Part shown: one piece after another, positions 1 through 38,104 of the stretch
How the letters are laid out: each line of letters opens with the position of its first letter
How positions within the stretch are numbered: the stretch's first letter is position 1
Source: a virus
IMG/VR virus record: IMGVR_UViG_3300045051_000100
Span: 1-38,104 of that record
Length of the DNA stretch: 38,104 nucleotides
Direction: 5' to 3' (one strand)
Program-made: the position numbers and the translations under genes
The notes under the pieces: generated by a model
Told to the model about the DNA's origin: nothing
Databases searched by the model: none
The model's input: the letters and a program-made list of their open reading frames with translations, nothing else

Positions 1-135
1 GCAAGTGACGAAGCTAAGAAGAAAGTATTGGACAGCCTAGTTAGCGATATACGGAGTTCAGCCAAGATGGATGTTGCCAGTGGTGTCACACCAACTTCTA
101 CTGTAAGTACGACCTCCAAGATTGATACCTCTAAA
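1..135. repeat. Terminal direct repeat, left copy (assembly overlap of a circular genome)
   Basis: These 135 bases recur at 37970-38104 with one difference, A at 127 against T at 38096. The reading frame of the giant gene runs through both copies, so this is the overlap left when a circular or circularly permuted genome is opened, not a separate functional repeat. The mismatch changes Thr to Ser in the protein. Confidence 0.93.
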
Positions 136-12209: not shown

Positions 12210-12272
12210 GTGAGCGAAATACTAGATTGGATACACAGGTGGCATGACAACCAGCGAAAAAAACAAACTTGA
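12210..12272 (+). CDS. Possible 20-residue peptide
   Basis: GTG 12210 opens MSEILDWIHRWHDNQRKKQT and closes inside the following HNH gene. There is no clear SD. It may be chance, or it may couple translation into the HNH gene, whose own SD is poor. Confidence 0.2.
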   Translation: MSEILDWIHRWHDNQRKKQT

Positions 12273-12591
12273 TAAACTATGGAAAGAAACAATACATACA
12301 CGCGATAAGTTTTGTCAGGTATGTGGCCAAACTAAGTCTCGACTCAATGCCCATCACATTATAGGTAGGCGCAACTTAAACTTACGGTGGGAACTACAAA
12401 ATGGCATCTTGCTGTGTGCTGGCGACCACACCCTCAGAACTAAGTCGGCTCACCAAGACCCTTTATGGTTCAGCCAGTGGTTTCAAGAAGAGTACCCAGA
12501 GCGATACGAACACATAACATCTAACCGCATCAATAATGGTTTAAAGCATGACTTTGACTATTGGAAAGAACATATATGTTCGTCGAAATGA
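12244..12591 (+). CDS. HNH nuclease, possibly NinG/Rap-like recombination endonuclease
   Basis: 115 residues. HTRDKFCQVCGQTKSRLNAHHIIGRRNLNLRWELQNGILLC contains the first CxxC, the HH pair, the Asn and a later Cys/His of the His-Me finger. A GDH follows where many HNH proteins have a second CxxC. Unlike the three late-region HNH genes it lacks NUMOD repeats and lies in the recombination unit, so a NinG-like role in recombination is more likely than homing. Homing remains possible. Confidence 0.7.
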   Translation: MTTSEKNKLDKLWKETIHTRDKFCQVCGQTKSRLNAHHIIGRRNLNLRWELQNGILLCAGDHTLRTKSAHQDPLWFSQWFQEEYPERYEHITSNRINNGLKHDFDYWKEHICSSK

Positions 12592-19986: not shown

Positions 19987-20383
19987 TAAACCTCAAGGCG
20001 GAAACCAATACTCAGTAGATCCTAGACAAGTAGAGTTCCTTACATATTATCTAAACCCAGGTAGTGAAACATACAGTAATATATACCAATCAGCTAAGAA
20101 AGCCGGATACTCTGAATCATATGCCGCACAACTTAAAACTAAGGTCAATTGGTTACCAGAAAATATCAAGTTAGTTACTAAGGACAAATTAGTTACAAAA
20201 GCCAAGAACAACCTAAACAAATTACTAGACTCAGCAGATGAGAAGATACAGGCTGATATTACTAAGTTTGTGGCCAAAACAGATATAGAGTTCAGTGAGA
20301 AGCAAGAGACAACTATTAACTTACCTACTCCGATACTATCCGGCATCAGTAAACAAGGCGATATGGAAGATGCCAAAGACTAA
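19979..20383 (+). CDS. terS: Terminase small subunit
   Basis: 134 residues from ATG 19979, eight bases after GGAGGA; a longer frame from 19892 lies mostly in the previous gene. DPRQVEFLTYYLNPGSETYS, NIYQSAKKAGYSESYAAQLK is the helix-turn-helix arrangement of terminase small subunits that recognise the packaging site. The rest is a helical oligomerisation region (KNNLNKLLDSADEKIQADIT). Adjacent to large terminase, separated by a nuclease gene. Its last 14 bases overlap that gene. Confidence 0.75.
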   Translation: MTDKPQGGNQYSVDPRQVEFLTYYLNPGSETYSNIYQSAKKAGYSESYAAQLKTKVNWLPENIKLVTKDKLVTKAKNNLNKLLDSADEKIQADITKFVAKTDIEFSEKQETTINLPTPILSGISKQGDMEDAKD

Positions 20384-20801
20384 GGAAAGTATAGCGGCAT
20401 ACAATAAAGAGTATTTTGCTAGACCCGAAGTCATAGCCCACGCTAAAGTTCGCAACGCACAACGTAGACAAAAACGTGCAGAATATAAAAAGACTGATGC
20501 CGGTATCGAAGCAGATAAAAGATACCGGTCTAGTTGTGTGGGTAGGACAACGGCCGAGAAGAGTCGGCTAAAGGTTAGGTATGGTATCACACTAGAAGAA
20601 GTAGAACTGATGAAAGAGTCTCAAGGTTATAGATGTGCTATATGTTGGAGAGAACCTAAACACTGGCACATAGACCATGACCATAAGACCGATAGGGTGC
20701 GTGGTATGTTATGTGGGCCATGCAATATGGCACTTGGTCTACTTCAAGATGATATTCATACTATAAAGAAAGCGGCAGAATACTTAGATGCCAGTATTTA
20801 A
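20370..20801 (+). CDS. Endonuclease VII-like His-Me finger nuclease inserted between terminase genes
   Basis: 143 residues. The N-terminal half is basic (KTKESIAAYNKEYFARPEVI, RRQKRAEYKKTDAG). The C-terminal domain GYRCAICWREPKHWHIDHDH, KTDRVRGMLCGPCNMALGLL, QDD is the T4 endonuclease VII/His-Me finger signature with two CxxC pairs. It overlaps the genes on both sides by exactly 14 bases, each overlap beginning ATGCCA and ending TAA. Homing insertion is likely; a role in resolving DNA for packaging is possible. Confidence 0.85.
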   Translation: MPKTKESIAAYNKEYFARPEVIAHAKVRNAQRRQKRAEYKKTDAGIEADKRYRSSCVGRTTAEKSRLKVRYGITLEEVELMKESQGYRCAICWREPKHWHIDHDHKTDRVRGMLCGPCNMALGLLQDDIHTIKKAAEYLDASI

Positions 20802-30173: not shown

Positions 30174-30614
30174 ATGGCAGTCGTAACTGCAATCTACACA
30201 GAAGCAAAGAAAGATATGTTAGGCACAGGGCTTAACTGGACTTCAGCAACAATTAACTGCGCTTTGTTTAGCGCGTCAACATTTACAGCAGCAGATACTA
30301 CTTATACAACAAGTGGTACAGAGGTTGCTAACGCCAACGGTTACACCACAGGCGGCGGTGCTGTTGGAACCCGAACACTATCAGGTACAACCACTCAAGT
30401 CGCCAAGATTACTGGTGCTTTCGGTGGTGGGGCAGCAGGTACAACCACTTGGACAGCTACAGGTGCAGGTTTTAGTGCAGTCGCAGCCAAAGTATATATA
30501 TCCGCAGGACATCCAATAGCCCACGTTGACTTTGGTGGGACACTCACCGCTTCAGGTGGCGGCACTTTCGTCATTACTTGGGACGGAACTTCGGGAGTCT
30601 TCTCTCTATCTTAG
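30174..30614 (+). CDS. Gly/Thr-rich virion surface protein
   Basis: 146 residues from ATG 30174 with GGAG eight bases upstream. MAVVTAIYTEAKKDMLGTGL, NWTSATINCALFSASTFTAA opens a beta-rich Gly/Thr/Ala domain. Its last ten residues (DGTSGVFSLS) are nearly repeated at the end of the following HNH protein (RGTNGVFSLT). Confidence 0.55.
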   Translation: MAVVTAIYTEAKKDMLGTGLNWTSATINCALFSASTFTAADTTYTTSGTEVANANGYTTGGGAVGTRTLSGTTTQVAKITGAFGGGAAGTTTWTATGAGFSAVAAKVYISAGHPIAHVDFGGTLTASGGGTFVITWDGTSGVFSLS

Positions 30615-30626
30615 AAAGGGTAATAT

Positions 30627-31082
30627 ATGCACACAATCCCACATACATTAGAAGCACGTAAGAAAATGAGTGCAACAAAAATGGGTAAACACTATTCTCC
30701 CAGGACGGAGTTTAAGGTTGGTCAAGTAGCTCCTATGAAGGGGAAGAAACGACCTGACTTAATTGGCAATACTCAAGGATTCACAAAGGGTCATATACCA
30801 TGGAATAAGGGTCTAGGTACTAAAAGTTCAGAAAACGAGAAAGCACGAAAGGTAAAATTAGCTCGTGATTGGCGTAAGTCAATTTTTGAAAGAGATGATT
30901 ATACTTGTAAAGAGTGTGGTGTCCGAGGAGGCACACTAAATGCTCATCATATTAAACCGTTCGCTATCTATCCAGAACTAAGATATGAGTTAGATAACGG
31001 CATAACACTATGTGAAGAATGTCACCGTTCTACAGACACTTGGGGTGTTCGTGGTACGAACGGCGTATTTTCACTAACATAA
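30627..31082 (+). CDS. NUMOD3/HNH homing endonuclease with structural-gene tail
   Basis: 151 residues. N-terminal NUMOD3-like piece (TLEARKKMSATKMGKH) and Lys/Gly-rich repeats (GFTKGHIPWNKGLGTK). HNH domain: FERDDYTCKECGVRGGTLNA, HHIKPFAIYPELRYEL, DNGITLCEECHRSTDTWG. The last ten residues RGTNGVFSLT do not belong to the HNH fold and match the C-terminus of the upstream structural gene. Different codons encode the two copies, which suggests insertion into the 3' end of that gene with a recoded replacement tail. Confidence 0.88.
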   Translation: MHTIPHTLEARKKMSATKMGKHYSPRTEFKVGQVAPMKGKKRPDLIGNTQGFTKGHIPWNKGLGTKSSENEKARKVKLARDWRKSIFERDDYTCKECGVRGGTLNAHHIKPFAIYPELRYELDNGITLCEECHRSTDTWGVRGTNGVFSLT

Positions 31083-31093
31083 GGAGGTAAGGC

Positions 31094-32047
31094 ATGGCTG
31101 ACGTTAAAATAAGCGCCCTACCTGCTGCTGGTGCATTAGCTGGTACTGAGCCGATTCCAACAGTTCAGACGGCAACTACGGTAGCAACTACTCCTGCGGC
31201 CTTAAAAACATATATGGGGGTGTCTGTAGCTGCTGGTAAAACTTTAACTGCTAGTAACTCACTTACTCTAGCTGGTACTGACGCTACTACAATGACATTT
31301 CCAACTGCGACAGATACAGTAGCCGGTCTAGCAGCCGTCCAAACTGTCACTGGTGCATGGTCATTTAACGATAGTAAACTGATACTCAAGGGGGCAACAT
31401 CAGGGACTACAACCCTAAAAGCAACGGCGGCGGCTGGCGCAACTACAGCTACATTTCCTGCGGCTAACATAACAGTTGCAGCGAACGATGGCTCTAACCT
31501 GACTATTACTGGTCAAGCTATTGGTGATATTCCAGTTGCCTCCAGCACGACGGCTTACGGAAAACTAGCAGCCGTAGCGACAGGTAGTGTTCTTCTATCT
31601 AAAGGCACAGGCACAGCTCCAGCGTGGGGTCTAGTCCCCAGCCGAGTTCTAGGCTATACGGAAGTCACAACTAACGGCACAGTGGCATCAGCCACTTTAG
31701 TGACATTTACAACTACCCCTCTTGCTGTCACATTCACAGCCCCAGGTAGCCGAGACGTAATCGTCACAGTTAATATGTCTGCTAGTGGCGCAACTACTGG
31801 TGACGGTTGCTGTATTGGTGTACAAGAATCGACCACTGTTTTAGGTGTAAAAACATGGTCACAATCTGTAGGTGGGAACTTTGTACCAATATGTCTACGT
31901 TTTAAGGTTACTGCACCATCAGCAGGTTCTCATACTTATACAGTTATGGGAGCTGAAGCTGGCGCTCGTACGCTTACGATGCAAGCTAGTGCATTAGGTA
32001 ACAGCATCGTAGCTGGGCCAGCATCAATCTTAGTCGAACTGGCGTAA
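31094..32047 (+). CDS. Tail appendage/fibre protein
   Basis: 317 residues behind AAGGAGGT. MADVKISALPAAGALAGTEP, IPTVQ is a common N-terminus of phage appendage proteins. Ala/Thr-rich beta repeats follow. The C-terminal 130 residues are a jelly-roll-like domain (RDVIVTVNMSASGATTGDGC, AGSHTYTVMGAEAGARTLTM, ILVELA) similar in layout to the end of the 3928 gene. Confidence 0.62.
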   Translation: MADVKISALPAAGALAGTEPIPTVQTATTVATTPAALKTYMGVSVAAGKTLTASNSLTLAGTDATTMTFPTATDTVAGLAAVQTVTGAWSFNDSKLILKGATSGTTTLKATAAAGATTATFPAANITVAANDGSNLTITGQAIGDIPVASSTTAYGKLAAVATGSVLLSKGTGTAPAWGLVPSRVLGYTEVTTNGTVASATLVTFTTTPLAVTFTAPGSRDVIVTVNMSASGATTGDGCCIGVQESTTVLGVKTWSQSVGGNFVPICLRFKVTAPSAGSHTYTVMGAEAGARTLTMQASALGNSIVAGPASILVELA

Positions 32048-32051
32048 CGTC

Positions 32052-32921
32052 ATGGCTGGCTATATCTTAAAAGAGGACGCAAGTTTCATCCTCTTGGAGG
32101 ATGGTGTTAGTAAACTTCTTTTAGAACGCAACGATGTAGCCGTCGCCCAGATTGCAGGTGCATTGTCACTCACTGGTGGAACACAGTCAGTTACGACTAC
32201 AGCCGGTGTTCAGAACGCCACAGTAGCACAAATCGCTGGGGCTTTATCATTATCTGGTGGAACTCAATCGACAGCATCCAGTCGATTCGCAACACTCTCA
32301 CAAATCGCAGCGACGGTTTCTTTAACAGGTGGTACGCAAACTCTAGCAACTATCAATAACTCCAGTGTAGCCCAGGTATCTAACGTACTAAACCTAATAG
32401 GTGGCACTCAGACAGTCGTAACGGTTCAGAACTCATCTATTTCACCAACTGCTGGGACACTTTCTATTGCTGGTGGTACACAGGGAGTATCGGGTAATGC
32501 TGGTGTAGCTAATGCCTCGGTTACTCAGATAGCTGGCAACCTATCACTCAGTGGCGGTACGCAGTCTACAAGTGCCATGAGAAACTCGACGGTTACTCAG
32601 GTGGCTGGAGCCATAAGCCTATCGGGTGGTACACAGTCTGCTACATCATCTAGGTTCGCAACAGTCACCCAATCAGCAGGTCTTCTGTCATTATCAGGCG
32701 GTACGCAGTCGGTCAACGCTATACGAAACGCTACTGTCACTCAATTAGTAGCGCAACTTAACCTAACCAATGGCATACAATCGCTAACATCGGTAAGCAA
32801 CGCCACTGTGTCGCAAGTAAGCGCGAACCTTACCTTAGTTGGCGGAACGCAGTATGTGGTAGGCGGTACAGGTGGAACACCAACTACATTTACTAGAATG
32901 ATGATGGGTGTAGGTTTATGA
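32052..32921 (+). CDS. Repeat protein with ten 24-27 residue units
   Basis: 289 residues. The head (MAGYILKEDASFILLEDGVS, KLLLE) has the LLEDG wording of phage appendage proteins. Residues 27-272 are ten tandem units of the form N-A-T-V-x-Q-x-A-x-x-L-S-L-x-G-G-T-Q-S, eight of 24 and two of 27 residues. A short GGTGGTPTTF tail follows. The array could form a beta-solenoid-like rod on the virion. No enzymatic motif. Confidence 0.62.
   Translation: MAGYILKEDASFILLEDGVSKLLLERNDVAVAQIAGALSLTGGTQSVTTTAGVQNATVAQIAGALSLSGGTQSTASSRFATLSQIAATVSLTGGTQTLATINNSSVAQVSNVLNLIGGTQTVVTVQNSSISPTAGTLSIAGGTQGVSGNAGVANASVTQIAGNLSLSGGTQSTSAMRNSTVTQVAGAISLSGGTQSATSSRFATVTQSAGLLSLSGGTQSVNAIRNATVTQLVAQLNLTNGIQSLTSVSNATVSQVSANLTLVGGTQYVVGGTGGTPTTFTRMMMGVGL
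32130..32870 (+). repeat. Ten tandem coding repeats (about 72 bp each)
   Basis: The units begin NATVAQIAG, FATLSQIAA, NSSVAQVSN, NASVTQIAG and so on, and each contains GGTQ (one has NGIQ). DNA identity between units is modest, so the array is old or selected for codon variety rather than a recent expansion. Confidence 0.75.
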
Positions 32922-37000: not shown

Positions 37001-38104
37001 AAAGGTGAAGTTGGTAAAGTTGCATCTGAGGTTATTGCACCATTTACAGGCGTTCCTACATCAATTGCCGGCAAGACAGTCGCTTACTCACCTATCGGAC
37101 TAGCAAAGGGTATTGTCAATACTGGCCGTGTGTTAGCTGGTAAAGTACCAGAACTACAACGACAGGCTGCTCAAGAGATTGGTCGTGGTGTAATGGGTAC
37201 TGGTTTGTTCGGACTAGGCGCATACCTCACAAGCCAAGGACTGATGACTGGACAACCTAAAGATGCAAAGGAAGCCGAACTGTGGGCTGCGGAAAACAAA
37301 CCATCTAATTCAGTTAAGATGCCTGACGGTAAATGGTACGGTATTAACTCGATTGGCCCTCAAAGTCTTGTGATGTTAGCTGGTTCTAAAGCACAAGAGG
37401 AAATGGCTAAAGGCGACAAAGGCAACCTTGGCACGTACGCGGCTGGAGTCGGTAAAGACCAACTAAGTCAAACATTCCTAGCTGGTGTACAAGGCCCACT
37501 TAATGCCTTAACTGACCCAGTGAGATACGGACAAAGTTACCTAGGTAGCCAAGCATCATCTGTAGTACCTAATATCATTAAAGATACCGCTAAGGCCTTT
37601 GATACTAAACAGCGAGAAAATAACTCTGTTGGTGACTACTTCCAGAACTCTATACCTGGTTGGCGCAATATGAACGTAGTTAAACGTGATGTCATGGGCA
37701 AAGAGATGCCACAAGAACCAACTGGCCCATCGGCATTTGTAGACCTATTCAACTCTAAGACTCCTAACAATGACCCAGTAATCCAAGAGTTAGACCGACT
37801 ATATAACGTAGGGCAAGAAGCCACCCCATCAAAACTTAATAAGAATATGTCGGTATTAGGGCAAAAGTTCACTCTAACACCTACAGAACTAAACAATTTT
37901 GAAAAGACCACTGGTGAAAGTGTCTCCAACCAGTTCAGTTCAATTATGAATACACCTGAGTACCAGCAAGCAAGTGACGAAGCTAAGAAGAAAGTATTGG
38001 ACAGCCTAGTTAGCGATATACGGAGTTCAGCCAAGATGGATGTTGCCAGTGGTGTCACACCAACTTCTACTGTAAGTACGACCTCCAAGATTGATTCCTC
38101 TAAA
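34034..38104 (+). CDS. Giant polyvalent virion protein with ART-like domain (continues at 1-621)
   Basis: The frame runs to the window end and, on the circle, to 621: 1,518 residues. The Pro/Gln-rich N-terminus (20-90) is followed by Gly/Ala-rich helices (100-380). RGSAEAGMFDPTGKL near 430 is a typical linker of phage polyvalent proteins. Residues 505-565 (DVKIYRSSPVNEINNGDWVT, TSKTYANDI, KVYEYTVKAKDLNLP) match an ADP-ribosyltransferase-like ART-PolyVal domain. Then come long helical LPD-like regions (HERNLFGNSIMLGSEV near 807) and W-A-A-E-N...KWYGINSIGPQSLVML near 1085-1110. A virion protein ejected with DNA is likely. The ART activity is an inference. Confidence 0.78.
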   Translation, partial: MFDLKKLFDPFAKPTVKSTPQPASTSQAIKKPVDNRPFPMRVPGTTPTPQQQVQFTPPVQQFKPAIVPQFNRPQVKSVIAKPNNNGNPFNMIGDAGKFIGDFVPNAIGSGLKSGVAGISNAVNDLTTGFDKYQTQKNTQDLLNTLGLSKLGNGKSVGAKAGQAVGDIISGLATFVPTTGEKVISQIPKAVLQGELARAANDAYAKGNTALGGNLQAESQNHGITLNDVASNTAQGVLAALTSGAGVAKPVTNAAENALAKGTGNVLDRAVANYAKFGEGAGLNNLAKNLLVKQGGTGAAFGLSGTVADPNATPQDYLNSAASGYAGGVGFGLLGKALSPPAKAVNKVTTKLVSNTPKGRVGERGSIQLPTINQELRQMNETLRSLNTEHGKLLAKGLSENSPAVKANARSYKIALNEKMAIQKRIGQRGSAEAGMFDPTGKLGKEVPKTSYRSSHQIDTVTSRNLSNLTNLDGDINTIKSKYGLTNYDNKDITNLKKIVGNPEADVKIYRSSPVNEINNGDWVTTSKTYANDIKAQNGGKVYEYTVKAKDLNLPQNIEDNPSLARFSAFQYNKSDIAPQVSKTAELPIVGPKITKTTSKKASEVDPLLKERGFVKSAKQSEFVSDAAKSQLDSTYTTKANKVLQDKAAIRISKDPTKAYDYALRTHSDEGTATAIALAQEYRKTGKYDLEASLINEKARRLTEAGREVQAASLIDKMSPEGVVQSAAQTIQKYNETAKKPIPELTGKIAEQFTKQAEKIGKMKDGRAKNVELWKLKEDMANLIPSTVADKAITVWKAGLLTSLRTHERNLFGNSIMLGSEVAKDVPSVLADKLMSLKTGKRTLTPTVKGMGEFGSKGTRQQVSDLVKYGVDLSKDISKYDVNHITWGKGKIQQGLKAYTDAVFRPLGAEDVTFANAAMARSLYDQAGAMAINAGKKGDAGFIRKLVKKPTDTMLETALKDAEYATFHDKTALGGLASKGKQFVQGLPGWKGEVGKVASEVIAPFTGVPTSIAGKTVAYSPIGLAKGIVNTGRVLAGKVPELQRQAAQEIGRGVMGTGLFGLGAYLTSQGLMTGQPKDAKEAELWAAENKPSNSVKMPDGKWYGINSIGPQSLVMLAGSKAQEEMAKGDKGNLGTYAAGVGKDQLSQTFLAGVQGPLNALTDPVRYGQSYLGSQASSVVPNIIKDTAKAFDTKQRENNSVGDYFQNSIPGWRNMNVVKRDVMGKEMPQEPTGPSAFVDLFNSKTPNNDPVIQELDRLYNVGQEATPSKLNKNMSVLGQKFTLTPTELNNFEKTTGESVSNQFSSIMNTPEYQQASDEAKKKVLDSLVSDIRSSAKMDVASGVTPTSTVSTTSKIDSSK
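37970..38104. repeat. Terminal direct repeat, right copy
   Basis: Copy of bases 1-135 with one mismatch at 38096. See the left copy for interpretation. Confidence 0.93.

Follow-up and report, generated by a model that had tools for sequence, protein, structure and literature searches.

Why should the gene for a phage HNH endonuclease end in nearly the same residues as the gene in front of it? The question is raised by a 38,104-base virus record (the whole stretch of DNA analysed, called the window below), in which WDGTSGVFSLS* closes the gene at 30174-30614 and TDTWGVRGTNGVFSLT* closes the HNH gene that follows it at 30627-31082. A 135-base overlap with a single mismatch joins the two ends of the window (1-135 and 37970-38104), which is therefore probably a near-closed phage genome, complete and circular, the record itself carrying no completeness value. 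The features of the locus are as follows.

30174..30614, plus strand: gene of 146 amino acids, apparently the one invaded; an open reading frame matching phrog_644 (E 1e-11), with relatives in L001-L039 and L167-L199.
30585..30614, plus strand: putative replacement tail GTSGVFSLS*, the copy used by the upstream gene; an outlier at a near-invariant T-N-G, its core matching that of the HNH-free relative L184 at 14/15.
30615..30626, plus strand: 12-nucleotide spacer with AAAGGG, from its sequence the likely ribosome-binding site of the HNH gene.
30627..31082, plus strand: HNH endonuclease gene, 151 amino acids (Pfam HNH E 2e-7; phrog_144 E 1.6e-15; weak N-terminal NUMOD3).
30906..31031, plus strand: HNH domain, residues 94-135, from the Pfam match and a predicted model.
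31053..31082, plus strand: putative displaced original tail GTNGVFSLT*, the end and stop codon of the HNH gene; 25/30 to the empty-site tail of L010 (19/30 for the upstream copy), with the T-N-G consensus.
31083..31093, plus strand: probable original intergenic stretch with GGAGGT, the ribosome-binding site of the next gene; the first 20 nucleotides after the stop match L010 at 17/20.
31094..32047, plus strand: gene starting MADVKISAL, which probably followed the invaded gene before the insertion; MADAKISAL lies directly after the phrog_644 gene in L008 and L010.

The last 30 nucleotides of the two genes are identical at 18 positions, and the 12 differences fall nine times at codon position 3, twice at position 1 and once at position 2. 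The endonuclease ORF is accordingly flanked by a second, diverged version of the end of the host gene (18/30 nucleotides, 7/12 amino acids). Because four of the 780 gene-end pairs in the window reach 18/30, the DNA likeness taken alone is modest evidence; at the protein level the tail pair is the best of 780 in the window, with 7/12 against 5/12 for the runner-up. An end-anchored similarity score, computed between the C-termini of HNH ORFs and those of the ORFs just upstream (present for 92 of 98 distinct HNH ORFs), gives 37 for the window pair, whereas the maximum among 8372 mismatched HNH/upstream pairs is 26 and none reaches 29. The shared tail described in the original prediction, with its mostly third-position differences and a score above all mismatched pairs, is thus real. 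The exact junction is blurred, since ACTTGGG is common to both copies just before the tails and is followed in the HNH gene by six extra bases, so that two additional residues (GVR) separate TW from GTNG.

The tail does not look like an ordinary part of the nuclease. The Pfam HNH domain (residues 94-135) retains the conserved CxxC...HH...N...CxxCH, and the NUMOD3 match at the N-terminus is weak and below the cut-off. In the predicted protein model, blocks of residues 71-140 have pLDDT values of 87-98 against 38-49 for residues 141-151, so the HNH fold appears not to use the C-terminal tail, in line with what had been supposed from the sequence. Comparable HNH proteins have short, variable tails past T-x-[TSN]-[YFW], and GVFSL, NGVF and TNGV are absent from the last 20 residues of all 97 other HNH ORFs; HNH homologues naturally ending in GTNGVFSLT, which would have spoken against displacement, did not appear in this set, and an ordinary HNH C-terminus is rejected. 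The HNH gene has no stop codon of its own and terminates on the one that seems to have been displaced, a dependence that contradicts the earlier view of a 'seamless' insertion. We note that the window contains three more HNH or endonuclease VII genes (1283-1861, 12244-12591 and 20295-20801), the last just upstream of the large terminase gene; in the tail survey its two other HNH genes showed no tail match to their own upstream genes.

The upstream gene had been labelled structural, which is not established: its product belongs to phrog_644, with no function assigned, the gene lies in the virion region downstream of the major head protein, and the best PDB match of the predicted model (mean pLDDT 70), a phage fiber-tail adaptor, has an E value of only 0.043. 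VFSL forms the last strand of that model. A tblastn search of the phage collection with the invaded gene returned no match. The gene 3' of the phrog_644 gene varies in most of the relatives read (L001-L014 and others), so genetic exchange seems to have one of its boundaries at the 3' end of the phrog_644 gene.

Which of the two tails is original can be judged from relatives without the HNH gene. We compared 17 relatives chosen from 39 and 33 rows of viral-contig matches (L001-L039 and L167-L199), leaving out by choice contigs found twice, near-identical repeats (L005, L012, L013, L186) and most distant relatives. As far as the contigs reach, an HNH gene directly after the phrog_644 gene is absent in 16 of the 17 and present in L003. 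In the HNH-free L008 and L010 the MADAKISAL gene follows the phrog_644 gene with nothing between; its likeness to the window gene at 31094-32047 is seen at the N-terminus. (The protein encoded beyond that gene, at 32052-32921, contains many AQIAGALSLTGGTQS-type repeats.) The tail of L010 matches the HNH-side copy at 25/30 positions versus 19/30 for the upstream copy, and after the stop codon at 17/20 versus 9/20. The 30-nucleotide tail of L008 scores 20/30 to the HNH side versus 23/30 to the upstream copy, with 7 versus 7 after the stop. Over the 15 nucleotides of the TNGVF core, 13 of the 16 HNH-free relatives are nearer to the HNH-side copy, two are tied (L008, L187) and one (L184) is nearer to the upstream copy; the corresponding stretch of L003 is also closer to the HNH-side copy. 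T-N-G is near-invariant in the phrog_644 family, where the window's own T-S-G, with TCG rather than AAC or AAT, is the outlier. The expectation that HNH-free tails would resemble the HNH-side copy therefore held for 13/16 cores and for L010, but not for the core of L184 or the 30 nucleotides of L008, which fit the upstream copy. These alignments largely support the view that the HNH-side tail is the original, now displaced, and that the upstream tail has replaced it, and the claim that the original tail now ends the nuclease gene is supported by L010, before and after the stop, and by the T-N-G consensus.

The HNH-free L184 (2501-2953) has T-S-G with the window's codons in a ACTTCGGGAGT-type core that matches at 14/15. 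This suggests that the replacement tail has a natural counterpart and was not recoded for the purpose, and the bespoke replacement tail that had been envisaged is not upheld. L184 could represent a natural donor-type allele or the scar of an HNH loss. The nearest relatives have about 80% protein identity and include no near-identical pair of empty and occupied sites, so the insertion is read across old divergence; a 45-nucleotide identity profile along the invaded gene revealed no clean switch that would mark a recombination breakpoint, L008 often being the nearest relative both upstream and at the tail. In L003 a homologue of the window HNH (65% over 63 amino acids) follows the phrog_644 gene, whose tail, TNGAFSAASS, is unlike the window's, and the contig stops inside the HNH. 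When viral sequences were scanned for further copies of the window HNH, the window/L003 alignment returned the contig of L003 alone, again ending inside the HNH. The presence of this homologue suggests that either the phrog_644 site was entered at least twice or the HNH was kept in both the window and L003.

The arrangement recurs at other viral HNH genes, next to unrelated upstream genes. In a survey of loci gathered by HNH similarity, by the GHIPWNKG pattern (among the matches listed) and by other routes, five of 92 viral HNH ORFs matched their own upstream tail with a score of at least 23, against 0.077 expected from 7/8372 mismatched pairs, a threshold fixed after the first survey results had been seen; the comparison of HNH tails with the tail of the downstream gene gave 0/83 at that score. 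The window was the survey query and L009 entered through the invaded-gene search, and with both removed the count is 3/90. The five loci are the window, L222, L075, L077 and L009, and relatives support three of the four non-window cases. L009 pairs another HNH with another upstream gene; this HNH ends LIEALN*, and all seven relatives of the upstream family read to the end (7/7) finish IESLN, IEALN, GESLN or IESLT. The HNH of L075 ends WFEVARSVN*, and the HNH-free upstream-gene relative L334 ends WYEVSRSTN*. In L222 (reverse complement 1-2173) the HNH splits a glycosyltransferase into two ORFs with a copy of about 22 residues on both sides; the gene is uninterrupted in L348, and the ORF after the HNH continues the enzyme. 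Over this part of the copy the displaced PEEKVFITSNG is nearer to PDEKVFITANG of L348 than is the upstream LREKIFVTSNG, although the alignment scores of the whole segments are nearly equal (86 and 85). A second HNH-like ORF lies at 2384-2959 of L222. The upstream gene of L077 yielded no informative relative, and this locus is a plausible candidate tail-swap case. L251 (score 21) and L335 (score 20) fall below the threshold and were kept out of the case count. No convincing tail match was found among 13 HNH loci from sequenced phage isolates, and of 28 chromosomal HNH ORFs preceded by another ORF, drawn from 30 bacterial loci in the phylum of the Mucilaginibacter record, none scored at least 15, so the displaced-tail trait seems to be confined to a minority of viral HNH genes.

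The closest parallels come from fungal mitochondria and from another phage. In the mORFs of Glomus atp6, atp9, cox2 and nad3 and of Allomyces atp6, as in the window, the endonuclease ORF brings a diverged C-terminus and leaves the native one downstream, where the native copy is nearer to element-free relatives (PMC3630166). The same is found here for 13/16 cores, with L010 for it and L008 against it over 30 nucleotides. These mORFs differ in encoding LAGLIDADG or GIY-YIG nucleases of mitochondria rather than an HNH of a phage, and the part of that paper available to us describes no mORF that runs into the displaced tail, whereas the window HNH ends on displaced tail and stop (PMC3630166). Gene 68 of mycobacteriophage Island3, absent from Brujita, ends with the last 18 residues of its upstream gene, for which its authors proposed recombination between sequences of about 50 bp (PMC3029335); in the sequence record we find the tail copy to match at 54/60 nucleotides. 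Unlike the window HNH, its product has 85 residues and no homologues and, in the sections available, is not described as an HNH (PMC3029335). The ShiLan insertion in phage methylases resembles the window in being an HNH insertion that opens, when read in the frame of the host, with residues similar to those that follow the site, but as presented in the accessible text it is mid-gene, with the HNH out of frame, its own stop at the element's end and no displaced tail (PMC11855218). Free-standing HNH and GIY-YIG endonucleases of the T4 type share with the window HNH the adjacency to a conserved gene and, as proposed here, co-conversion of flanks and resistance of the carrier allele, and the portion of the account at hand mentions no displaced tail fused to the nuclease (PMC2988022). 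The split nrdA of Aeh1, from a partial account, is a gene in pieces like the L222 glycosyltransferase. Our searches of an open-access literature library brought up no account of a phage HNH gene that terminates in a tail displaced from its target gene; the published precedents are the fungal mORFs and Island3 gene 68, and a phage HNH completed by a displaced host tail would be the new aspect.

We regard it as probable that the window locus arose by one-sided homing, with co-conversion of the donor's gene end and an in-frame junction between the 3' end of the nuclease and the severed tail of the recipient. In an ancestral phage the 30174-30614 gene would have been broken near its last codons, and a free-standing HNH gene would have inserted there, at the gene's 3' end. 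On the left, where donor and recipient were homologous, repair would have copied the donor gene end together with the HNH gene; on the right, with no homology past the HNH gene, the nuclease 3' end would have been attached directly to what the cut left of the recipient tail. The nuclease stays open to a stop only if such a junction is in frame, and an in-frame product presumably survived. The invaded gene would thereby still encode its entire protein, now with a tail of the donor type, and the nuclease would have gained the old tail and stop codon of the recipient, with the ribosome-binding site of the next gene preserved. Since the HNH ends in the recipient's old tail, that tail may be a scar marking the point of insertion, and the replacement tail would have removed the target and made the carrier resistant. 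One-sided events with illegitimate, microhomology junctions are reported for T4 intron homing (PMC2988022), and free-standing endonucleases are described as conferring resistance when the donor allele replaces the recipient's cleavage sequence (PMC12724721), each as far as the available part of the source goes.

The principal alternative is that replacement tail and HNH formed a ready-made cassette that homed precisely, the tail swap being a property of the element and not a by-product of rough repair. We think this rather improbable but worth serious consideration, as the anatomy is that of the Glomus and Allomyces cases in the excerpted report (PMC3630166) and an HNH homologue occupies this site in L003. 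The L003 contig, however, ends inside the HNH and allows no comparison of tails, its upstream tail is unlike the window's, and each supported case involves a different HNH and host gene, with repeat homing of one cassette not seen. It is unlikely that the 3' end of the gene was instead duplicated within the genome and the copy captured by an HNH, with neither donor nor homing: an event in situ does leave duplicates at both ends, and the Island3 copies are 54/60 identical, but the window copies differ at 12/30 nucleotides and have different nearest relatives (L184 or L008 versus L010), and the stop of the downstream copy is followed by sequence of the L010 type.

Two further explanations have very little probability in our estimation. 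Chance or convergence, by which the HNH C-terminus merely resembles its neighbour's tail, could draw on the four gene-end pairs in 780 that are as alike over 30 nucleotides; it is disfavoured by the score of the window pair, reached by 0/8372 mismatched pairs, by the recurrence of tail matches at other loci and by the L010 match that extends past the stop codon. No more credible is a small intron or intein whose removal rejoins the HNH-side tail to the gene, even though the ShiLan insertion, on the partial text, likewise has repeats at its 5' and 3' flanks (PMC11855218). The upstream gene ends on a stop of its own, the HNH ORF nearly fills the gap between the tails, and the window has no Rfam match at gathering scores, including any to a group I intron core around the HNH ORF, on which ground an intron was rejected. 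One-sided homing is the reading that we carry forward.

What makes the locus interesting is that the pattern recurs and that nuclease C-termini may allow insertion sites to be read. Predicting the targets of free-standing homing endonucleases is difficult, and the similar tails on a few other viral nucleases raise the prospect that the nuclease's own tip may mark where it landed. If the displaced tail marks the break, comparison of the C-terminus of a nuclease with that of its neighbour would yield candidate target sites for uncharacterised HNH genes, together with a record of the allele invaded and the allele that replaced it. If true, this would also account for some unusual extensions at the C-termini of HNH proteins and for split genes such as the L222 glycosyltransferase. 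We therefore suggest, tentatively and as something short of probable, that viral HNH genes are recurrent tail-swap invaders of coding sequence, in which a foreign end keeps the host gene intact while displaced host codons complete the nuclease, and whose C-termini may record the points of insertion and make target sites readable across uncultured phages.
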